Below the pieces are notes generated by a model. That model was not told the DNA's origin. It saw only the letters and a program-made list of their open reading frames with translations, and did not search any database. 64,000 bases of DNA from Glycomyces fuscus (GTDB lineage Bacteria; Actinomycetota; Actinomycetes; Streptosporangiales; Streptosporangiaceae). The translations under genes and the position numbers were made by a program. The DNA lies in assembly GCA_002529455.1 (NCBI GenBank), contig NYMS01000004.1:124001-188000 (forward strand), read 5' to 3'. Shown here one piece after another: positions 46,921 through 55,809 of the stretch (positions are counted from its first letter, which is position 1; each line of letters starts with the position of its first letter).

Positions 46921-46943
46921 GGTGTCCTCCTCAGTTCGGTTCC

Positions 46944-46978
46944 TTGACCGGAGCCCCAGTGTGGAAGTTAATGTCCAC
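46944..46978 (+). promoter_or_regulatory. MerR-type promoter/operator; leaderless merR start
   Basis: TTGACC (46944-46949) and TAATGT (46969-46974) are 19 bp apart, the long spacer typical of MerR-controlled promoters. The dyad gtgga...tccac (46961-46978, centre ttaa) overlaps the -10. The ATG at 46979 would be at the transcript start. The methyltransferase start lies 24 bp away on the other strand. Confidence 0.55.
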
Positions 46979-47434
46979 ATGAAGTCAAGCGAGTCGGAGC
47001 TGTCCATCGGCGAACTGGCCGAACCCTTCGGACTGGCCACCCACGTGCTGCGGCACTGGGAGTCGGTCGGCGTCCTGGAACCGTCCCGCCGCGCGGGCGG
47101 CCAGCGCCGGTACACGCCCGAGCAGCGCCTGCGGGTGGCGCTGGTGCTGCGCGCCCAGGAGGCCGGGTTCAGCCTGGAGCAGATCCGCGAACTGTTCGGC
47201 GCCGCGGACGGGGCGGCGCGGCGCGAGCGCCTGGTCGAACACCTGGCACGGCTGGACGAGCGCCTGGCCCGGCTGCGGGCGGTCCGCGACATGGTGGCGC
47301 ACACGCTCTCCTGCGAGGCCCCGGACATCCTGGAGTGCCCGACCATGAGGGCGGTGCTGGAGGAGGACGCGGTGTCGGAGTGCGGTGCTATGCATGACCG
47401 CACACACCCTCCGAGACTCCGGGAGTCCCCTTGA
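46979..47434 (+). CDS. MerR family transcriptional regulator
   Basis: 151 residues from ATG 46979. N-terminal MerR winged helix: LSIGELAEPFGLATHVLRHWESVGVLEPSRRAGGQRRYTPEQ, then a dimerisation helix and a C-terminal part with Cys residues in LSCEAPDILECP and SECGAMH, possibly a metal- or redox-sensing site. Likely regulates the divergent methyltransferase at 46920 and itself. Its stop overlaps the TTG start of the first STM4015 paralogue by four bases, so it may also be coupled to that gene. Confidence 0.9.
   Translation: MKSSESELSIGELAEPFGLATHVLRHWESVGVLEPSRRAGGQRRYTPEQRLRVALVLRAQEAGFSLEQIRELFGAADGAARRERLVEHLARLDERLARLRAVRDMVAHTLSCEAPDILECPTMRAVLEEDAVSECGAMHDRTHPPRLRESP
47380..47425 (+). 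promoter_or_regulatory. Conserved upstream element of STM4015 copy 1
   Basis: gtcggag..gcggtgctatgcatgacc followed by cacaccctccgag lies inside the merR 3' end. The same arrangement recurs before copy 2 (48509-48555) and partly before copy 3 (49630-49660, gctgctagatatgtgcc), suggesting a copied promoter with -10-like tatgcat/tagatat. Confidence 0.4.
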
Positions 47435-48453
47435 CCTTCAGCACCCACCGGACCGAGCTCGCCGGACTGCCCGTCGCGGGCTACCTGGAGGCCCGCCACC
47501 TGGTCCGGGGCGGGGAGGCCGCCCCGCACGGCGCCCCGTCCCCGGAGAGGGACGGCCTCGCCGACCCGGGATCGGTGGCCTGGCGGTTGGACCGGTACTG
47601 CCGCGGGGAGGAGGTGCCGGAGGACCCCCGGGAGTACCTGGAGGGCTTCCTGGAGTTCGTCGGCGCCCCGGCCGCGGTCCGCGCCCTGGTGGTCGGCGGG
47701 TTGGTGGAGGGCTTCGATGTGGGCTCCTCCGACGCCGTCCGCGACGCCCTGGTGGAACTCGCTCCGCGCCTGCCCGGCCTGCGCTCCCTCTTCTACGCCG
47801 ACCTGACCTTCGAGGAGTGCGAGGCGTCGTGGATCGAGCACGGGGACCTGTCCCGGCTGGTGAACGCCTTTCCCGGTCTGGTCGGGTTCGCGGTGCGCGG
47901 CACCGCCCGCCTGGGACTGGAGGCGCTGGAGCACGACGGGCTGCGCCGCCTCGCCCTCCAGGGCGGGGGACTGCCCGGCAGGCTCACCCGCGAGGTCGTC
48001 TCCTCCCGGCTCCCCGCCCTGGAGCACCTGGAGCTGTGGCTGGGGACCGAGGACTACGGCGGCGACACCACGGCGGAGGACCTCGCCCCGGTGCTGTCCG
48101 GCGAGGCCTTCCCCGCGCTGCGCTCGCTGGGACTGCGCAACGCCGAGCACACGGGCGCCTGGGTGCGGGTCCTCGCCGAGGCCCCCGTCACGCGCGGCCT
48201 GCACACCCTGGACCTGTCCCTGGGCACCCTGCGCGACAAGGACGTCGCGCCCCTGCTGGGGTCGCCCGTGTTCCGCGGACTCGGGAAGCTGGACCTGCAC
48301 CACCACTACCTGTCCGAGGAGGCGGAGAAGGAGGTCCGCGCGGCGCTCGCCGGGGCCGGGGTGGAGGTCGACCTGTCCGAACGCGAGGAGCCGGAGGTCG
48401 ACACGTACGACGGGGAGACCGAGACCTACTACTACACGGCCGTCTCCGAGTAG
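47431..48453 (+). CDS. STM4015 family leucine-rich-repeat protein, copy 1
   Basis: 340 residues from TTG 47431 (4-bp overlap with merR stop). N-terminal THRTELAGLPVAGY, then a leucine-rich-repeat-like body (LPGLRSLFYADLTFEECEASWIEHGDL; HDGLRRLALQGGGLPGRL; LPALEHLELWLG; FPALRSLGLRNAEHTG; GLGKLDLHHHYLSEE) and an acidic linker ending YYYTAVSE. STM4015 proteins occur with STM4011-STM4014 genes; function unknown. The conserved last ~7 residues could be a tail recognised or modified by the cluster enzymes. First of three tandem copies; it is the least similar in the N-terminal linker. Confidence 0.88.
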   Translation: MTFSTHRTELAGLPVAGYLEARHLVRGGEAAPHGAPSPERDGLADPGSVAWRLDRYCRGEEVPEDPREYLEGFLEFVGAPAAVRALVVGGLVEGFDVGSSDAVRDALVELAPRLPGLRSLFYADLTFEECEASWIEHGDLSRLVNAFPGLVGFAVRGTARLGLEALEHDGLRRLALQGGGLPGRLTREVVSSRLPALEHLELWLGTEDYGGDTTAEDLAPVLSGEAFPALRSLGLRNAEHTGAWVRVLAEAPVTRGLHTLDLSLGTLRDKDVAPLLGSPVFRGLGKLDLHHHYLSEEAEKEVRAALAGAGVEVDLSEREEPEVDTYDGETETYYYTAVSE

Positions 48454-48508
48454 TCCCCAGGACCGCCGGGGCGCCTCCGGACCGCCCGTGCCCGGGCGTC
48501 CGGGGAGC

Positions 48509-48555
48509 GTCGGTGCGCGCTGGTAGGCATGGACGCACACCCTCCGAACCCCTGG
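48509..48555 (+). promoter_or_regulatory. Conserved upstream element of STM4015 copy 2
   Basis: cgtcggtgcgcgctggtaggcatgg followed by acgcacaccctccgaa matches the element before copy 1. It supports duplication of gene plus promoter. Confidence 0.4.
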
Positions 48556-48563
48556 GAGAGACC

Positions 48564-49613
48564 GTGGCCTTCGAGACCCACCTGACCGAGTTCGCCGGAC
48601 TGCCCGTCGTGGAGTACCGCTCCCCCGAGGAGTGGGCGCGGGAGGCGGAGAAGGATCGCGAGAGAGCGGAGCGGCGGGGCCGGGGCTTCACCGACCCCGG
48701 CCCGTACCCGCCCCCGGCACTGGCCGCGGCCCTGGCCGACCCCGGGTCGGCGGCCTGGCGCCTCAGCGCCGACGAGGAGCCCTCGGACCACTATCGGCGG
48801 TTCACCGCGCAGGTGGACCAGGACCGGGTCGCCGCCGTCGTGCTCGGGGACATGCGGGAGACCTTCTCCGTGCAGTGCCCCGACCCCCTCAAGCGCGCCC
48901 TCCTGGAGGTGGCGCCGGACCTGACCGGGCTGCGCTCCCTCTTCTACTGCGATGTGACCTACGAGCAGCTCGAGGTCTCGTGGCTCGAACTGGGCGACAT
49001 GGCACCGGTCCTGGACGCCCTCCCCCGGCTGACCGAGTTCGCGGTGCGCGGCACGGGTGGCATGAGCCTGCACGTGCCCCGGCACGACTCGCTGCGCCGC
49101 CTCACCCTCCAGGGGGGCGGGCTGCCCGCCGGACTCACCCGCGAGGTCGTCTCGTCCGGTTACCCGGCACTGGAGCACCTGGAGCTGTGGCTGGGCGTGG
49201 AGAACTACGGGGGTGACACCACCCCGGAGGACCTCGCACCCGTCCTGTCCGGCGAGGCCTTCCCCCGGCTGCGATCGCTGGGGCTGCGCAACGCCGAGCA
49301 CACCGACGACTGGGTTCCGGTCCTCGCCGAGGCCCCCGTCGCCTCGCGCCTGCACACCCTGGACCTGTCCCTGGGCACCCTCACCGACAAGGGCGGACAG
49401 GCCCTGGTCGAGGCCGCAGCCGCGTTCGGGCACCTGAAGCGGCTCGACCTGCACCGCCACTACCTGTCCGAGGAGATGAGCGAGCAGGTCCGGGCCGCCT
49501 TCGCCGGGACCGGTGTGGACGTGGACCTGTCCGGCCGCGAGGTCGGCAGCGACTGGGAGGACGAGAACTTCGACTACGACTCGGCCGGCTACTACACGGC
49601 CGTCGCCGAGTAG
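48564..49613 (+). CDS. STM4015 family leucine-rich-repeat protein, copy 2
   Basis: 349 residues from GTG 48564 (gggagag upstream). Same layout as copy 1: THLTEFAGLPVVEY at the N-terminus, a variable Glu/Arg-rich linker, LRR body (LTGLRSLFYCDVTYEQLEVSW; YPALEHLELWLGVENYGGDT; FPRLRSLGLRNAEHTDDW; HLKRLDLHRHYLSEE) and acidic linker DWEDENFDYDSAG before YYTAVAE. Much of the central part is nearly identical to copies 1 and 3, whereas linkers differ. Function unknown. Confidence 0.88.
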   Translation: MAFETHLTEFAGLPVVEYRSPEEWAREAEKDRERAERRGRGFTDPGPYPPPALAAALADPGSAAWRLSADEEPSDHYRRFTAQVDQDRVAAVVLGDMRETFSVQCPDPLKRALLEVAPDLTGLRSLFYCDVTYEQLEVSWLELGDMAPVLDALPRLTEFAVRGTGGMSLHVPRHDSLRRLTLQGGGLPAGLTREVVSSGYPALEHLELWLGVENYGGDTTPEDLAPVLSGEAFPRLRSLGLRNAEHTDDWVPVLAEAPVASRLHTLDLSLGTLTDKGGQALVEAAAAFGHLKRLDLHRHYLSEEMSEQVRAAFAGTGVDVDLSGREVGSDWEDENFDYDSAGYYTAVAE

Positions 49614-49689
49614 GGCCCGCGCCGTCCGTCATGTCACCGCGAGCTGCTAGATATGTGCCTGCCCGAAACCCCAAGGTAGGAGCCCCCCG

Positions 49690-50712
49690 ATGCTGAACAA
49701 CCACCACGTCACCGAGTTCGCGGGCCTGCCCGTGGTCGAGTTCCCCGCGGTCGGGGCCGAGGAGGGCGACGCCTACGCCGAGGAGCCCGCCCAGTCCGCC
49801 GAGGCGCTGGCCGCCGCGGTCGCCGACCCCGGCTCGGTGGCGTGGCGGCTGCGCGTCTCGTCGGTCTACCCGGCCGAGGACTTCGGGGACTACCTCGCCC
49901 GCTTCCTCGCGGCCGTGGACACCGGCCGGGTCCGGGCCCTGATCGTCGGCGGTTGGGGCGACTTCGAGGAGGAGCCGCCCTCCACCGTCCCGCGCGACGC
50001 GCTCATCGGCAGTGCCGACGCCTTCCCCGGTCTGCGGGCGCTGTTCTTCGGCGAGATCCTCCAGGAGGAGTACGAGATCTCCTGGATCCACCAGACCGAC
50101 CTGGCGCCCCTGGTGGCGGCGTTCCCCCGGTTGGAGGAACTGACCGTGCGCGGCACCGGCGACCCCTACCTGGGCGACGGCAGGCTGGAGATGGCCCTGG
50201 CCGAGCACACCGGCCTGCGGACCCTGGTCCTCCAGAGCGGCGGCCTGCCCGGCCGGGTCTCGCGCGAGGTCGCCGCCTCGCCGCTGCCCGCGCTGGAGAA
50301 CCTCGAACTGTGGCTGGGCGTGGAGGCCTACCGGGGCGACACCACCCCCGACGACCTGGCGCGGGTGCTCTCCGGCGAGGCCTTCCCCGCGCTGCGCTCG
50401 CTGGGACTGCGCAACGCCGAGGACGTCGACGACTGGATCCCCGTCCTGGCCCAGGCCCCCGTCCTGGCCTCCCTGGACTCCCTGGACCTGTCCCTGGGCA
50501 TCCTCACCGACAGGGGCGGACAGGCCCTGGTGGAGGCCGCGTCCGCGTTCGCCGGGCTGCGCCGCCTGGACCTGCACCACCACTACCTGTCCGAGGACGT
50601 GTGCGCACGGATCCGCGGGGCCCTGCCCGGCGTGGAGGTGGACCTGTCCGAGCACCGGGAGCCGTACACCCACGGGGGCGAGCCGTACTACTACACGGCC
50701 GTCGCCGAATGA
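49690..50712 (+). CDS. STM4015 family leucine-rich-repeat protein, copy 3
   Basis: 340 residues from ATG 49690 (aaggtagga ahead). NHHVTEFAGLPVVEFP, linker rich in Glu/Ala, then LRR repeats (FPGLRALFFGEILQEEYEISW; LPALENLELWLGVEAYRGDT; FPALRSLGLRNAEDVDDW; GLRRLDLHHHYLSED) and the tail GGEPYYYTAVAE. Its stop overlaps the STM4014 start (ATGA), so this copy is directly coupled to the enzymes. Three STM4015 genes before one enzyme set is notable; one is what I would expect of this locus. Confidence 0.88.
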   Translation: MLNNHHVTEFAGLPVVEFPAVGAEEGDAYAEEPAQSAEALAAAVADPGSVAWRLRVSSVYPAEDFGDYLARFLAAVDTGRVRALIVGGWGDFEEEPPSTVPRDALIGSADAFPGLRALFFGEILQEEYEISWIHQTDLAPLVAAFPRLEELTVRGTGDPYLGDGRLEMALAEHTGLRTLVLQSGGLPGRVSREVAASPLPALENLELWLGVEAYRGDTTPDDLARVLSGEAFPALRSLGLRNAEDVDDWIPVLAQAPVLASLDSLDLSLGILTDRGGQALVEAASAFAGLRRLDLHHHYLSEDVCARIRGALPGVEVDLSEHREPYTHGGEPYYYTAVAE

Positions 50713-51845
50713 CCCCCGGACGCCCCCTGGTCGTGGTGGGGGTCCCCGGCCACCGGCGCCTGGAGCTCTTCGGCGCCGCGGCCGGGGCACGGGGCCTTCC
50801 CGGACCGGTGGTCGTGCCGTGGCGCGCGCTGGCCTCCGGACCGGTGGAGCTGCCGCGGGACGCCCTGGTCCGGGTGGACTCCCCGGGCGGCGACGCGGAG
50901 ACCGAGCGCCTGCTGCGGGGCTGGGAGCACACCCCCGACCTGTACCGGGCCGAGGGCACCGCCGACCAGCACGCCGGGTTCCGGGCCGCGCTGGACCGGC
51001 TCGCGGCCGCGGCGCGCGCCACGCCGGGCGCGGCCCTGCTCCAGGAGCCCGCCGACCTGGTGGACATGTGCGACAAGCGGCGCTGCCACGCCCGTCTGGC
51101 GGCGGCCGGGGTGCCGGTGGCGCCCGCCCTGCCCGGGCCGGTCACCGGCTACGCGTCGCTGCGCGCGGCGATGGACGCCCACCGCTGGCCGAGGGTGTTC
51201 GTCAAGCCCGCGCACGGCTCCTCGGCCTCCGGCGTGGTGGCCCTGGCCACCGCCCCGGGCGGACGGATCCGCGCGGTGACCTCCGCCGACCTGGTCCGGG
51301 GCGCCGACGGGTCCGTGGAGCTGTACAACAGCCTGCGGCTGCGCGCCTACACCCGCGAGGAGGACGTCGCGGCGGTGGTGGACGCCCTGGCCCCCGACCG
51401 CCTGCACGTGGAGCGGTGGGTGCCCAAGGCGGGGTTCGACGGCAGGACCGTGGACCTGCGCGTGGTGGTGGTCGCGGGCCGGGCCACCCACGTCGTGGTG
51501 CGCTCCTCCTCCTCACCCATGACCAACCTGCACCTGGGCAACGCCAGGGGGGACCTGGCGGCCCTGCGGGCGTCGGTCGGCCCGCACGCCTGGGCGAAGG
51601 CCGTGGCCACCGCCGAGGCCGCCGCCGCGTGCTTCCCGCGCACCCTGCACGCCGGGGTGGACCTGCTGGCCTCACCGGGGTGGCGGGAGTTCACCGTGTG
51701 CGAGGTCAACGCCTTCGGCGACCTGCTCCCCGGCGTGCTGCACGAGGGCCGCGACACCTACGCCGAGCAGCTGCACGCCCTGGCCACCGGCCGGTTCCCC
51801 GTACCCGAAACCGAGAGCACATGCACAGCACCGCACCCGACATGA
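50709..51845 (+). CDS. STM4014 family ATP-grasp-like protein
   Basis: 378 residues from ATG 50709. ATP-grasp features: RVFVKPAHGSSASGVVAL (central Lys and flexible loop), LHVERWVPKAGFDGRTVDLRVVVVAGRATHVVVRSS, and the C-terminal acidic/Asn metal site in FTVCEVNAFGDLLPG. ATP-grasp enzymes link a carboxylate to an amine or thiol via acyl-phosphate, so it could ligate an amino acid or close an amide/ester. Always with STM4011-4015 relatives; exact reaction unknown. Starts in the stop of copy 3 and runs into the STM4013 start. Confidence 0.87.
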   Translation: MTPGRPLVVVGVPGHRRLELFGAAAGARGLPGPVVVPWRALASGPVELPRDALVRVDSPGGDAETERLLRGWEHTPDLYRAEGTADQHAGFRAALDRLAAAARATPGAALLQEPADLVDMCDKRRCHARLAAAGVPVAPALPGPVTGYASLRAAMDAHRWPRVFVKPAHGSSASGVVALATAPGGRIRAVTSADLVRGADGSVELYNSLRLRAYTREEDVAAVVDALAPDRLHVERWVPKAGFDGRTVDLRVVVVAGRATHVVVRSSSSPMTNLHLGNARGDLAALRASVGPHAWAKAVATAEAAAACFPRTLHAGVDLLASPGWREFTVCEVNAFGDLLPGVLHEGRDTYAEQLHALATGRFPVPETESTCTAPHPT

Positions 51846-52681
51846 ACGCCGTGGTGGGCACGCACGACATCCTGCTGCTCACCCTGGACACCCTCCGCCA
51901 CGACGTGGCCGCCGAACTCGCCGAGGCGGGCCGCACCCCGAACCTGGCCCGGCTGCTGCCGGGCGGGCGGTGGGAGCGCAGGCACGCGCCCGCGAGCTTC
52001 ACCTACGCCTCCCACCTGGCGATGCTCGCCGGGTTCCTGCCCACCCCCGCCTCCCCCGGACCGCACCCGCGCCTGTTCGCCGCCGCGTTCCCCGGCAGCG
52101 TGTCCACCGCGCCCGGCACCTGGACCTTCGACACGCCCGACCTGGCCTCCGGGCTGGCCCGGGCCGGGTACCACACGGCCTGCGTGGGGGGCACGGGCTT
52201 CTTCAACCGGCGGTCGGCGGTGGGCTCGGTCATCCCGGACATGTTCGCCGAGAGCCACTGGGAGGAGTCCTTCGGCGTGACCGACCCGCGCTCCTTCGAG
52301 CACCAGGTGGCGTGCGCGGCCCGGATCGCCGGGGAGCGCCCCGCGGACCAGCCGCTGTTCCTGCTGCTCAACGTGTCGGCGCTGCACCAGCCCAACTGGT
52401 TCCACCTGCCCGGGGCCGTCCCGGAGGACGGCGACACCAGGAGCAGCCACGCGGCGGCCCTGGAGTACGTGGACCGGCACCTGCCGCCGCTGCTGGCCGC
52501 GATGTCGGCCCGCCGCCCCTGCTTCGCGATCGTGTGCTCCGACCACGGCACCGCCTACGGGGAGGACGGCTACACCGGCCACCGGATCGGCCACGAGACC
52601 GTGTGGACGGTCCCCTACGCCCACGCGTTCCTGCCCCGGGGACGCACCGCTCCCGCCGACGCCCAGGAGGCGACCGCGTGA
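51842..52681 (+). CDS. STM4013/SEN3800 family alkaline-phosphatase-fold hydrolase
   Basis: 279 residues from ATG 51842 (ATGA overlap with the STM4014 stop; ATG 51821 is the alternative with gagag upstream). DILLLTLDTLRHDVA has the metal Asp pair and a Thr nucleophile position, and CSDHGTAYGEDGYTGHRIGHETVWTVPYA has the second metal site (Asp-His, His), as in sulfatases/phosphodiesterases. It may cleave a phosphate or sulfate ester in the pathway. Stop overlaps the STM4012 start. Confidence 0.87.
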   Translation: MNAVVGTHDILLLTLDTLRHDVAAELAEAGRTPNLARLLPGGRWERRHAPASFTYASHLAMLAGFLPTPASPGPHPRLFAAAFPGSVSTAPGTWTFDTPDLASGLARAGYHTACVGGTGFFNRRSAVGSVIPDMFAESHWEESFGVTDPRSFEHQVACAARIAGERPADQPLFLLLNVSALHQPNWFHLPGAVPEDGDTRSSHAAALEYVDRHLPPLLAAMSARRPCFAIVCSDHGTAYGEDGYTGHRIGHETVWTVPYAHAFLPRGRTAPADAQEATA

Positions 52682-54024
52682 CCACCGCCCCGACCCCGCG
52701 CCCCGAACCGGTGCGCGCCGACTCCCCCTACCAGTCCTACGTCTACGCCTACCCGCACAAGAGCGCCTACCGGCCCTTCACCGAGCCCCCCGCGCTCGCC
52801 GACCTGTGGCGCGGCGAGGACGTCGGCGCGCTGTCGCTGTACGCGCACATCCCGTTCTGCGAGATGCGCTGCGGGTTCTGCAACCTGTTCACCCGCTCCA
52901 CTCCCCCGGCCGAGCAGGTCACCGCCTACCTGGACGCGCTGGAGCGGCAGGCGGAGGCCGTGGCCGGGGCGCTGCCGGAGGGCGCCGCCTTCGCCCGGGC
53001 CGCCCTGGGCGGCGGCACCCCCACCTACCTGACCGCCGAGGAGCTCACCCGGGTCTACGACCTCACCGAGCGCGCGTTCGGGGTGGACCTGTCGGCGGTC
53101 CCGGTGTCGGTGGAGACCTCCCCGGCCACGGCCACGCCCGACCGGCTGGCGGTGCTCGACGCGCGCGGCGCCACCCGGATCAGCATGGGCGTGCAGAGCT
53201 TCCTGGACTCCGAGGCGCACGCGGCCGGGCGTCCGCAGAGGCGCGCCGAGGTGGACCGGGCTCTGGCCGCGATCCGCGAGCACGCCTCGGCCGACCTCAA
53301 CGTCGACCTCATCTACGGCATCGACCGGCAGGACGCCCGCACCTGGGCCTACTCCCTGGACACGGCGCTGGAGTGGGAGCCGGAGGAGGTCTACCTGTAC
53401 CCGCTGTACGTGCGGCCGCTCACCGGGCTGGGCCGCCGCGCACGGGCGTGGGACGACCACCGGCTGGGCCTGTACCGGCAGGGCCGCGACCACCTGCGCG
53501 AACGCGGCTACGAGCAGGTGTCCATGCGCATGTTCCGGCGGGCGGACGCCCCGGCGGCGGACGGGCCGGAGTACTGCTGCCAGACCGACGGCATGGTGGG
53601 GCTGGGCTGCGGGGCCCGGTCCTACACCTCCGCGGCGCACTACTCCTTCGACTACGCCGTGGGCGTGGGACAGGTGCGGTCCATCATCGCCGACTACACG
53701 GGCCGCGACCGGGCCGGCTTCGCCCGGGCCGAGGTGGGCTTCCACCTGGACGGGGACGAGCGGCGCCGCCGCCACCTGCTCCAGTCGCTGCTGCTCGCGG
53801 AGGGGATGGACTCCGCCGCCTACGCCGACCGGTTCGGCTCCCGCCCCGAGGAGGACTTCGCCGCGACCCTGGCGGTGCTGGACGGGCGCGGCTGGCTGGA
53901 GCGGGACGGGGCGCCGGACCGGCTGCGGCTGACCCCGGAGGGACTCGCGCACTCCGACGCGGTGGGGCCGATGTTCTTCTCGGCCGGGGTGGCGGCCCTG
54001 ATGGCCGACTACGAGGCCCGGTGA
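52678..54024 (+). CDS. STM4012 family radical SAM protein
   Basis: 448 residues from GTG 52678, with caggagg ahead and a GTGA overlap. The radical SAM cluster motif CEMRCGFC gives Cys61, Cys65 and Cys68; AALGGGTPTYL, DLNVDLIYGIDRQ and DGMVGLGCGARSY are HemW/coproporphyrinogen-oxidase-like. It should bind a 4Fe-4S cluster and SAM and start radical chemistry. Substrate unknown. Its stop overlaps the next start. Confidence 0.92.
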   Translation: MTTAPTPRPEPVRADSPYQSYVYAYPHKSAYRPFTEPPALADLWRGEDVGALSLYAHIPFCEMRCGFCNLFTRSTPPAEQVTAYLDALERQAEAVAGALPEGAAFARAALGGGTPTYLTAEELTRVYDLTERAFGVDLSAVPVSVETSPATATPDRLAVLDARGATRISMGVQSFLDSEAHAAGRPQRRAEVDRALAAIREHASADLNVDLIYGIDRQDARTWAYSLDTALEWEPEEVYLYPLYVRPLTGLGRRARAWDDHRLGLYRQGRDHLRERGYEQVSMRMFRRADAPAADGPEYCCQTDGMVGLGCGARSYTSAAHYSFDYAVGVGQVRSIIADYTGRDRAGFARAEVGFHLDGDERRRRHLLQSLLLAEGMDSAAYADRFGSRPEEDFAATLAVLDGRGWLERDGAPDRLRLTPEGLAHSDAVGPMFFSAGVAALMADYEAR

Positions 54025-54947
54025 GCGCCGTGACCCCGGCCTCCCCCGCCCCGGGCCCCGCGCTCCCGCCGCACCTGACCCTGCTCTACCGGGGGCCGCT
54101 GGCCAGCTGCGACTACGACTGCCCGTACTGCCCCTTCGCCAAGCGGCGCGACAACCCCGAGACGCTGCGCGCCGACCGGGCCGCGCTGGAGCGCTTCACG
54201 GGCTGGGCGGCCGCGCTGGCGGCTCAGCACCCCGGCACCCGGCTCTCGGTGCTGTTCACCCCGTGGGGCGAGGGGCTGGTGCGCTCCTGGTACCGGACCG
54301 CCATCACCCGGCTCAGCCACCTGCCGCACGTGGAGCGGGTGGCCATCCAGACCAACCTGAGCGGCCGCCTGGGCTGGCTGGCCGACTGCGACCCCGGCAC
54401 CGCCGCGTTGTGGACCACCTACCACCCCGGCCAGACCAGCCATGAGCGCTTCTTGGCCAAGGCGCGCGAACTGGTCGGCATGGGGGTGCGGTTCAGCGTC
54501 GGCGTGGTCGGCGAACCGGAGCACCTGGCGGCGGCCCGGCGGATGCGCGCCGACCTGCCCGGGCGGGTCTACCTGTGGGTGAACGCCGCCGAGGGCAGGA
54601 CCTACACCGACGCGGAGGCCGCCGAGTGGCAGGCCCTGGACCCCCACTTCCACTACAGCCGCCGCCCCCACCCCAGCCGGGGGCTGCCCTGCCGTACCGG
54701 TGACACTGTGCTGTCCGTGGACGGGGAGGGGAACGTGCGCCGGTGCCACTTCGTGGACACGCCGATGGGCAACCTCTACGACGGCTCGTTCGCCGCCCGG
54801 CTCGGACCCCGCGCGTGCCCCCTGACCAGCTGCGACTGCCACATCGGCTACGTCCATCTGGAGTCCCTGGACCTGTACGACGTGTTCCGCGGCGGGGTGG
54901 TGGAACGGATCCCGGCCGCCTTCGGTTCCCCGCTCCCGCTCGTGTGA
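54021..54947 (+). CDS. STM4011 family radical SAM protein
   Basis: 308 residues from GTG 54021. Radical SAM motif CDYDCPYC (Cys30, Cys34, Cys37), TPWGEGL, and the C-terminal Cys-rich stretch around VRRCHFVD and CPLTSCDCHIGYVHL, which could hold a second Fe-S cluster (SPASM-like). Last gene of the STM operon; the next gene has its own promoter. Second radical SAM enzyme in the same cluster, so two radical steps on one substrate are likely. Confidence 0.92.
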   Translation: MSAVTPASPAPGPALPPHLTLLYRGPLASCDYDCPYCPFAKRRDNPETLRADRAALERFTGWAAALAAQHPGTRLSVLFTPWGEGLVRSWYRTAITRLSHLPHVERVAIQTNLSGRLGWLADCDPGTAALWTTYHPGQTSHERFLAKARELVGMGVRFSVGVVGEPEHLAAARRMRADLPGRVYLWVNAAEGRTYTDAEAAEWQALDPHFHYSRRPHPSRGLPCRTGDTVLSVDGEGNVRRCHFVDTPMGNLYDGSFAARLGPRACPLTSCDCHIGYVHLESLDLYDVFRGGVVERIPAAFGSPLPLV

Positions 54948-54963: not shown

Positions 54964-54992
54964 TTCGCAACGTCACTGGTAACAGACATAAT
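54964..54992 (+). promoter_or_regulatory. Promoter of the HAD gene (leaderless)
   Basis: TTCGCA at 54964-54969 and CATAAT at 54987-54992 are 17 bp apart. The expected start of transcription is near 55000, where an ATG lies, implying a leaderless mRNA. Confidence 0.5.
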
Positions 54993-54999
54993 GCGCACC

Positions 55000-55809
55000 A
55001 TGGTCTTTCCCCGGGTTATCGCGACCGACCTCGACGGCACACTCCTGGACGCGGGAGGCCTGGTCTCCGAGCGCAACCGGCGGGCGCTGACCGCCGCCGC
55101 GGAGGCGGGCGTCAAGGTGGTGGTCTCCACCGCGCGTCCACCGCGGACCACACAGCACATCGCCGAGCAGCTTCCCTGCGCCGCCGTGCTCTGCGGCAAC
55201 GGAGCGCTGGCCCACGTGCCCGGCGCCGACCCGCTGGTGCGCGCCATCGACCTGGAGACCGCCCGCTCGGTGGTCGAGAAGCTCAACGCGGAGCTGAGCG
55301 GGATCGGCTACGGCATCGAGACCGGTACCGACTTCTTCCACGACGCCGACTACCACCGGGAGCCGTGGCTGTCCGGCGAGTGGGTGCGCGAGGTGCTGGA
55401 GGACACCGAGGCGCTGCTGGCACGGGCCGCCCCGATCACCAAGCTGCTCGTGCGCTCCCGCGACATGCCGGTGGAGGCGCTGCACGAGGCGGCCGCGGCG
55501 GCGGTCGGTTCGCTGGCGGAGGTGACCTACTCGGGCAGCTACAGCCTGCTGGAGCTGAGCGCGCCGGGCGTGAACAAGGGCAGCACGCTCGCGATGGTCT
55601 GCGAGCGGTGGGGGGTGCCGGCCGAGGAGGTGGCGGCCTTCGGCGACATGCCCAACGACCTGGCCGCGCTGTCCTGGGCGGGCGGAGGGTACGCCATGGC
55701 CAGCGGGCACCCGGACCTGCTCGACCCGGCGCTGGGACTGCGGGTGGCCCCGCCCAGCGACGAGGACGGTGTGGGCCGGGTGGTCGAGCGGCTGCTGGCC
55801 GAGCGCTGA
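55000..55809 (+). CDS. HAD superfamily (Cof-type) phosphatase
   Basis: About 269 residues from ATG 55000; ATG 54991 lies within the predicted -10 and is less likely. Cof-type HAD: motif I VIATDLDGTLLD (nucleophile Asp), motif II VVVSTARP, Lys motif and C-terminal GDMPNDLAALSWAG (motif IV). Cap domain C2B. These phosphatases act on sugar phosphates and cofactors such as pyridoxal phosphate. Single gene with no visible partner. Confidence 0.92.
   Translation: MVFPRVIATDLDGTLLDAGGLVSERNRRALTAAAEAGVKVVVSTARPPRTTQHIAEQLPCAAVLCGNGALAHVPGADPLVRAIDLETARSVVEKLNAELSGIGYGIETGTDFFHDADYHREPWLSGEWVREVLEDTEALLARAAPITKLLVRSRDMPVEALHEAAAAAVGSLAEVTYSGSYSLLELSAPGVNKGSTLAMVCERWGVPAEEVAAFGDMPNDLAALSWAGGGYAMASGHPDLLDPALGLRVAPPSDEDGVGRVVERLLAER

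Follow-up and report, generated by a model that had tools for sequence, protein, structure and literature searches.

STM4015-type leucine-rich repeat proteins end in a conserved glutamate and may be carriers or substrates within a radical SAM gene cluster

The 64,000-nucleotide stretch of Glycomyces fuscus DNA analysed here (contig NYMS01000004.1, positions 124,001 to 188,000, hereafter the window) contains a gene cluster of the STM4011–STM4015 type, in which three tandem genes for leucine-rich repeat (LRR) proteins of the STM4015 family are followed, on the same strand, by the genes for STM4014, STM4013, STM4012 and STM4011, in the order of the NCBIfam STM4011–STM4015 set (Table 1). An initial annotation made from the sequence had recognized three STM4015 paralogues, an ATP-grasp-like protein, a hydrolase of alkaline-phosphatase fold and two radical S-adenosylmethionine (SAM) enzymes. 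All seven proteins are members of these families by NCBIfam curated score, with 340.5, 335.8 and 351.6 bits for the successive STM4015 copies (cut-off 275), 445.5 for STM4014 (175), 409.6 for STM4013 (250), 627.2 for STM4012 (380) and 399 for STM4011 (200). The gene overlaps described from copy 3 onwards are also present (ATGA at 50709 and 51842, GTGA at 52678 and 54021), as are the tails placed exactly at the stop codons. STM4013, STM4014 and STM4015 carry the NCBI label 'hypothetical equivalog'. We found no function for STM4011–STM4015 in the open-licence literature, as the initial annotation had supposed, although a subscription paper could exist; in that literature, STM4015 and STM4011–4014 appear as table entries only. 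Apart from PMC9303977, on carrier peptides, no paper listed for combinations of the cluster's parts appeared relevant.

Table 1. Features of the cluster and its surroundings (positions in the window, except for the last row)
Feature	Position	Strand	Remarks
MerR-type regulator gene	46922..47434	+	3' end overlaps the start of STM4015 copy 1
Promoter-like element GTC-N9-TGCTATGCATG	47374..47396	+	upstream of copy 1, within the 3' end of the MerR-type gene
STM4015 family LRR protein, copy 1	47431..48453	+	NCBIfam; TTG start at 47431, overlapping the stop of the MerR-type gene; tail YYYTAVSE
Promoter-like element	48509..48531	+	upstream of copy 2
STM4015 family LRR protein, copy 2	48564..49613	+	NCBIfam; GTG 48564 most likely the start; tail GYYTAVAE
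Promoter-like element	49633..49655	+	upstream of copy 3
STM4015 family LRR protein, copy 3	49690..50712	+	NCBIfam, model, fold match; tail YYYTAVAE
Conserved C-terminal tail of copy 3, Y-Y-T-A-V-A-E	50689..50709	+	last seven codons before the stop
STM4014 ATP-grasp ligase	50709..51845	+	NCBIfam, profile, model
STM4013 alkaline-phosphatase/sulfatase-superfamily hydrolase	51842..52681	+	Thr54 at the nucleophile position
STM4012 HemN-like radical SAM enzyme	52678..54024	+	
STM4011 radical SAM enzyme	54021..54947	+	C-terminal Cys-rich (SPASM/twitch-like) domain
HAD (Cof-type, Hydrolase_3) phosphatase gene	54991..55809	+	43 bases past STM4011
DUF6745 gene with ~100-residue partner, examples	L018:8909-10218; L019:2304-3629; L020:959-2423		

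The tail of STM4015 is conserved far outside this genome. In a joint recount, glutamate was the last residue before the stop codon in 192 of 193 distinct STM4015 sequences, the sole other end being that of a frameshifted second copy in Streptomyces altiplanensis (L075:5724-7502). This total combines 156 of 157 distinct open reading frames (ORFs), to which 168 STM4015 rows collapse, with 36 of 36 further distinct copies, 35 of them from genomes of the host's order; 18 of these 36 come from stretches without any other cluster gene and end in Glu nonetheless. Three rows with a domain score of at most 150 bits were dropped before the count of 157, namely one fragment, one shadow frame and the other part of the frameshifted copy, whose end is DE, and an open-ended copy (L112) and a 38-bit fragment (L127) were left out of the 36. 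Because the STM4015 profile covers the tail, a copy with a very different end might score lower; the 150-bit limit is, for its part, far above the share of the score that the tail contributes. Within the 192 Glu-ending copies, position −6 is Tyr in 156, Phe in 33, Ser in two and Asn in one, that is, aromatic (Y or F) in 189, the serine occurring in Methylobacterium and the asparagine in Salmonella; the single Gly at −6 in the set of 157 belongs to the frameshifted ORF. Position −2 is a small residue (S, A, G or T) in 190 copies and position −3 is Val in 159, while −7 and −8 are variable. Conservation amounts to 4.56 bits at −6, the sixth best of 313 columns, and 3.33 bits at −1, against a mean of 2.01; it is poor in the preceding linker, which varies in length, and rises again at the tail. 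In an alignment of 71 diverse STM4015 proteins, the only invariant columns are Leu and Gly residues of the LRRs and the terminal Glu.

The last residues of the other four proteins encoded at the same loci vary: the commonest one accounts for 18 of 92 STM4011, 50 of 93 STM4012, 33 of 91 STM4013 and 24 of 92 STM4014 sequences, although position −4 of STM4012 is Tyr in 86 of 93. The constancy of the STM4015 glutamate is beyond chance. The tail is found in Actinomycetota, Deinococcota, Pseudomonadota (alpha and gamma), Bacillota, Bacteroidota and Cyanobacteriota, in a sample that is nearly all actinobacterial, with about 12 copies from outside Actinomycetota. The genome loci were fetched via STM4011, so that the tail itself was no selector, and the 80 kept out of 535 are all actinobacterial; the diversity beyond this phylum comes from plasmid and phage records, with 10 of the 13 plasmid records that have STM4011 being included, and from one contig of a viral collection. 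Altogether, the family invariant is the terminal Glu, with Tyr or Phe at −6, rather than a run of tyrosines. The initial annotation had proposed that the LRR protein is a carrier and that its Tyr-rich tail is a substrate or docking site. The first proposal fits these data. The tail withstood the refuting condition set by that annotation, a lack of conservation outside this genome, but the reading of a Tyr-rich substrate is weakened, and a chemistry restricted to Tyr is rejected as the conserved feature because −6 is not always Tyr. Since positions −6, −7 and −8 vary while the −1 Glu is constant in intact copies, the likely reactive point shifts to the carboxylates of the C-terminal Glu. A separate observation concerns a Calothrix plasmid, fetched with the whole of STM4015, which encodes a 424-residue STM4015-like protein ending in DRYCSVAE (L021:2014-3288) in a stretch with no other cluster gene; its N-terminal ~100 residues resemble parts of cyanobacterial proteins annotated as GUN4.

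STM4015 proteins are 280–360 residues long. The structural model of copy 3 has a mean confidence (pLDDT) of 94.1, and of 87 over the tail block. Among solved structures, the closest (Z 31.5) is that of a Bacteroides fragilis protein, 2ra8, which belongs to the STM4015-type family and has the tail YSYPMITE; like the NCBIfam set, it comes without an assigned function, and no paper naming 2ra8 or Q64V53 was found in the open-licence literature. The aligned range reaches model residue 340, so that the tail appears to be ordered in 2ra8. STM4015 proteins are very acidic, with a mean net charge of −29.6 (157 sequences) versus +3.5 for STM4014 (90 sequences); a few STM4011 ORFs in the charge table carry wrong starts.

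STM4014 is predicted to have the ATP-grasp fold of RimK and LysX, with its catalytic residues intact, an assignment made at the level of the fold. In sequence, its profile matches RimK (5zct, 4iwx) and LysX (1uc8) in the PDB with E values of about 1e-4, and a weak NCBIfam match is to rimK_rel_E_lig (E 2.7e-4). The AlphaFold2 model (pLDDT 90.7) gave LysX (3vpd), ArgX–LysW (3vpb), PsnB and RimK as top Foldseek matches, and the first nine rows of the VIA-align search were all LysX, ArgX or RimK (Z 22.6–21.6). Across 88 sequences, K166, E235, D249, R251, R265, N273, D318 and N334 do not vary, whereas E332 is Glu in 87 and Asp in one. The fold agrees with a reactive point at the terminal Glu of STM4015.

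The remaining enzymes of the cluster are of recognizable types. STM4013 has a Pfam Sulfatase match, and its top PDB matches are nucleotide pyrophosphatases/phosphodiesterases (E 6e-7). Sulfatases that are maturated to formylglycine have a Cys or Ser at the maturation site; in STM4013 the nucleophile position is Thr in 88 of 88 sequences, which rules out STM4011 as a sulfatase-maturating enzyme for it. STM4012 matches HemN (1olt, E 5e-53) and the methyltransferase NocN (E 3e-32). The C-terminal domain of STM4011 matches SkfB (E 1e-4), and its landmarks C30, C34, C37, C224, G237, C242, C266, C271 and C273 are kept in 92 of 92 sequences. SPASM radical SAM enzymes combine CxxxCxxC with CX9-15GX4C and further Cys residues, and STM4011 fits the Cys/Gly motif in this form.

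Ligase and LRR protein strictly co-occur: of 150 genomes searched in the host's order, 87 have STM4014 (over its cut-off), and precisely these 87 also have STM4015, with one to eight STM4015 copies per genome and 245 in total; in a phylum-wide draw, STM4015 was present in six of 396 genomes. The order 4015-4014-4013-4012-4011 is kept in Salmonella, Paenibacillus, three Deinococcus, Methylobacterium, Streptomyces and a Bacteroides-type contig, and the record of a Bacteroides finegoldii plasmid (L016) lacks STM4013 and STM4012. STM4011 is fused to a HAD domain in two Bacteroides-type clusters (L107:5611-7161, by reading, and L016:7959-9524, by Pfam); the STM4015 protein of L016 starts with a WGR domain, and the N-terminus of its L107 counterpart is similar by eye. 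WGR domains are also mentioned in two papers on Leptospira LRR proteins. In those plasmid regions that were annotated, which do not cover every flank, no peptidase or exporter lies within the run of five conserved genes. The RiPP-like (ribosomally synthesized and post-translationally modified peptide) system suggested by the initial annotation is thus not supported. RiPP precursors are short, with a leader and a cleaved core, and STM4015 is by its model a folded protein.

Accessory genes vary between loci. A HAD gene is present in 10 of the 80 genome-locus stretches, and adjoins STM4011 in Salmonella; its product is likely an accessory enzyme. A MerR-type gene occurs in nine stretches, in six of them with more than 100 bits, and is possibly a local regulator. 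More frequent are a DUF6745 gene (52 of 80) and, near the STM cluster, the gene for a ~100-residue partner with the motif GEVTGHxH...RQREYxP...VAD (54 of 80). HAD and DUF6745 genes occur together in none of the 80 stretches, and both are present in D. taeanensis (L022). DUF6745 matches above 300 bits were found in 55 of 87 STM-positive and in none of 63 STM-negative genomes, while 19 genomes, two of them STM-positive, have a lower-scoring type alone. The C-termini of these two partners are themselves strongly conserved: all 58 DUF6745 proteins have Tyr at −7 and 55 of the 58 end in Thr, while 63 of 64 ~100-residue proteins end in Asp. The host genome also has a fourth STM4015 copy, with the tail YYYTAVSE, on another contig and without cluster genes in the fetched stretch; its neighbours show local synteny only and gave no functional hint. 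This orphan copy, the HAD and DUF6745 partners and the promoter element described below are additions to the initial annotation.

A defence system and a viral origin were considered and rejected. PADLOC gave one weak match only, for STM4012, and three scans of viral contigs returned one Bacteroides-type cluster (L107) and, on a phage contig (L108), a distant radical SAM gene. The record labelled Salmonella phage S.Kent 1-2-1 (L026), with STM4014–4011 and HAD genes resembling the Salmonella plasmid record, is probably bacterial DNA. At the megablast level, the Salmonella cluster has no DNA match in E. coli. The cluster is also present on replicons of Nonomuraea (L024) and Embleya (L025) that are listed as plasmids, of 11.9 and 5.7 Mb, respectively; the former is probably a chromosome.

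In actinobacteria, STM4015 genes are preceded by a promoter-like element. In the host genome, GTC-N9-TG[CG]TA[GT][AG][CT]ATG lies about 57–60 nucleotides upstream of the aligned start of all four STM4015 genes, and the pattern, which was built from these four sites, has exactly four matches in 6.56 Mb, each preceding STM4015; a relaxed pattern returned the same four sites, and its reversed control one. Among 40 genomes of the genus, 13 contain the pattern, with 28 matches between them (six for the reversed control), all 28 with an STM4015 start at most 400 nucleotides downstream and 24 of them outside the host genome. The core TGTC-N12-TA is found within 150 nucleotides of 103 of 194 distinct STM4015 starts (loci fetched by the pattern left out), before 92 of 114 most-upstream STM4015 copies, including 68 of the 74 in named genome loci, and in 137 of 9700 random windows (1.4%). 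It also precedes 16 of 91 STM4014 starts, a count that includes loci fetched by the promoter pattern. The Streptomyces form resembles TTGTCAGTG-N8-TAGAAC.

This element resembles, in sequence, the RecA-independent DNA-damage promoter (RecA-NDp/PafBC), which PMC5656591 gives as tTGTCRgtg - 8 nt - TannnT. Both share the TGTC and its spacing, TGTCRGTG-N8-TA being found upstream of 48 of 194 STM4015 starts, whereas the −10 of the STM4015 element reads TAGAAC or TAGACA and has an extended TG. In favour of the promoter assignment, PMC5087735 describes an S. coelicolor gene that is induced by UV and preceded by a RecA-NDp promoter. The strict RecA-NDp consensus occurs on the opposite strand within 700 nucleotides in 18 of 114 cases, one such site (genome G182) directly preceding the gene for the ~100-residue partner. 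It is present once in the host genome and 21–34 times per genome in four genomes of one genus (L158-L187), which appears to be Streptomyces-like, with 0–1 match for the reversed control. Among 20 scanned of the 29 ORFs downstream of this strict motif, nine matched DNA repair families, two SigX5 sigma factors and one a kinase/cyclase family (below cut-off), and eight had no match; the repair matches were over cut-off for ung, xseA, uvrB and ogt, and below it for uvrA, two UvrD/PcrA-type helicases, a Hel308-type helicase and an AddB-like protein, several of which are cut by the end of the stretch. Simple scans of the upstream regions of ten non-actinobacterial genes revealed neither a convincing LexA box nor a convincing Deinococcus RDR motif, and a sigma-70 and terminator scan gave nothing useful.

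The simplest account of these data is that STM4015 is a carrier or substrate, because an invariant C-terminal Glu is combined with a ligase whose class works on Glu residues at C-termini, with opposite mean charges of the two proteins and with their strict co-occurrence. The explanation that we favour, tentatively and at slightly less than an even chance, is that STM4014 loads STM4015 at its terminal Glu, that the radical SAM enzymes elaborate the attached group and that the system is damage-induced in actinobacteria. The folded, acidic LRR protein would offer the Glu as attachment point and, through its LRR body and the Y/F-x-x-V-x-E tail, a docking surface. STM4014, as an enzyme of the LysX/ArgX/RimK type, would activate the Glu carboxylate as an acyl phosphate and join it to a small amine, such as an amino acid, after which the SPASM-like STM4011 and the HemN-like STM4012 could rebuild the attached group. 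STM4013 and the HAD phosphatase, or in many genomes the DUF6745 pair instead, might strip phosphate-containing parts or finish the group, yielding either a modified LRR protein or a released group. Since the conserved run holds no peptidase and paralogues are many, the product is more probably the modified LRR protein than a released group. Within a RecA-NDp-like DNA-damage response, the system would be switched on in actinobacteria. The constancy of the tail, the ligase fold, the intact catalytic residues, the co-occurrence, the gene order and the promoter element are computational results; the bond to Glu, the identity of the attached group, the succession of steps, the induction by damage and any release are inferred. 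A more specific version, which we consider rather unlikely, is that STM4015 proteins form damage-induced LRR carrier families (with WGR in Bacteroides-type clusters) which would deliver a dedicated prosthetic group or tag, built on the Glu by the radical SAM enzymes, to a target during the damage response.

Known systems offer partial parallels to such loading. The amino-group carriers (LysW with LysX/ArgX; Vzb22) likewise pair an acidic, Glu-ending carrier with a co-encoded ligase of LysX/ArgX fold (in STM4014 by fold, tied with RimK) whose net charge is, on average, opposite to that of the carrier. The acceptor of RimK on ribosomal protein S6 is also a C-terminal Glu, and its fold is that of STM4014, which in contrast to RimK is predicted to have a dedicated LRR substrate and lies in an operon with radical SAM enzymes. 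STM4015, with its LRR fold, is unlike the small globular domain of LysW, and two radical SAM enzymes and a phosphoesterase replace the later enzymes of the LysW pathway. In LysW-type carriers, the group is bound through an isopeptide bond to the gamma-carboxylate of the terminal Glu. Amino-group carrier proteins thus follow a similar logic on another carrier fold, and electrostatic docking is described for them in PMC9303977. In pearlins (3-thiaglutamate, 3-thiahomoleucine), described in the same paper, a residue is assembled at the C-terminus of the carrier, and in the case of 3-thiahomoleucine a radical SAM enzyme then remodels it. Pearlins differ in their loading by a PEARL with aminoacyl-tRNA and in their release by a protease, neither of which is seen in the STM gene set.

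Several observations weigh against this reading. The STM4014 profile scores slightly better for biotin carboxylase (5e-5) than for RimK or LysX, and in the structural comparison DcsG and PurK (from Z 21.4) lie only 0.2–1.2 Z from the LysX, ArgX and RimK rows, with glutathione synthetase within 2; this margin is small, and the fold alone therefore leaves the acceptor unfixed. The charge contrast is not universal, STM4014 having a net charge of −2 in the Bacteroides-type cluster L107. One to eight paralogues per genome are more than a plain carrier needs, and the conserved gene set is, unlike pearlin pathways, devoid of a release peptidase. As to induction, nine of the 21 genus genomes listed with STM4015 have no exact match to the four-copy pattern, TGTC-N12-TA precedes none of 11 non-actinobacterial STM4015 starts, and the strict RecA-NDp consensus precedes none of the 194 STM4015 starts, the final T of TANNNT being missing. 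PMC9380542 reports, moreover, that an initial search suggested a lack of conservation of the PafBC motif of M. smegmatis in S. venezuelae.

Conserved C-termini may also be recognition signals, and those of the neighbouring DUF6745 and ~100-residue proteins are similarly conserved. The STM4015 tail could thus be a non-covalent docking or degradation signal, with the enzymes acting on a free small molecule; we regard this as unlikely, a ligase class with known C-terminal Glu substrates being present in all 87 STM4015-bearing genomes among the 150 searched. Alternatively, STM4014 could mark STM4015 for regulation by extending its C-terminus with at least one glutamate or with a different amino acid, while the radical SAM enzymes act elsewhere. 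RimK is as near to STM4014 in fold as LysX is, and the weak rimK_rel_E_lig match points the same way, but such RimK-like tailing appears improbable, as it leaves unexplained why two radical SAM enzymes and a phosphoesterase are kept in order with STM4014 across phyla. Cross-linking or oxidation of an aromatic tail (W/Y-R/Y-Y/F) by the SPASM-like enzyme, as in cyclophane or PQQ-type RiPPs, would account for the conservation of Tyr or Phe at −6 and for the SkfB match of STM4011; in view of the Phe, Ser and Asn residues at −6, of the variability at −7 and −8, of a conserved run without peptidase or exporter, and of a ligase and a terminal Glu left unused, we consider it quite improbable. Pup is a small disordered modifier joined via its C-terminal Glu by a glutamine-synthetase-like ligase. 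A Pup-like conjugation, in which STM4014 would link the STM4015 C-terminal Glu to amines of other proteins and the LRR protein would be the modifier tag, fits the Glu that follows a small residue, the damage-type promoter and the co-occurring ligase, but is very improbable given the ordered ~300-residue LRR fold, an ATP-grasp ligase and radical SAM enzymes that it leaves unexplained.

The five-gene set is widespread in the host's order (STM4014 and STM4015 in 87 of 150 genomes), and several phyla have it (six have STM4015), yet the open-licence literature searched gives no function for it. Our results make it testable through one residue, one ligase, one mass and one inducing condition. If the adduct on the terminal Glu exists, the cluster would represent a new kind of carrier-protein pathway, in which two radical SAM enzymes take part, and might also open a new branch of the DNA-damage response in actinobacteria. 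The STM set may form a protein-modification or carrier system that is induced by damage and for which we know of no parallel.

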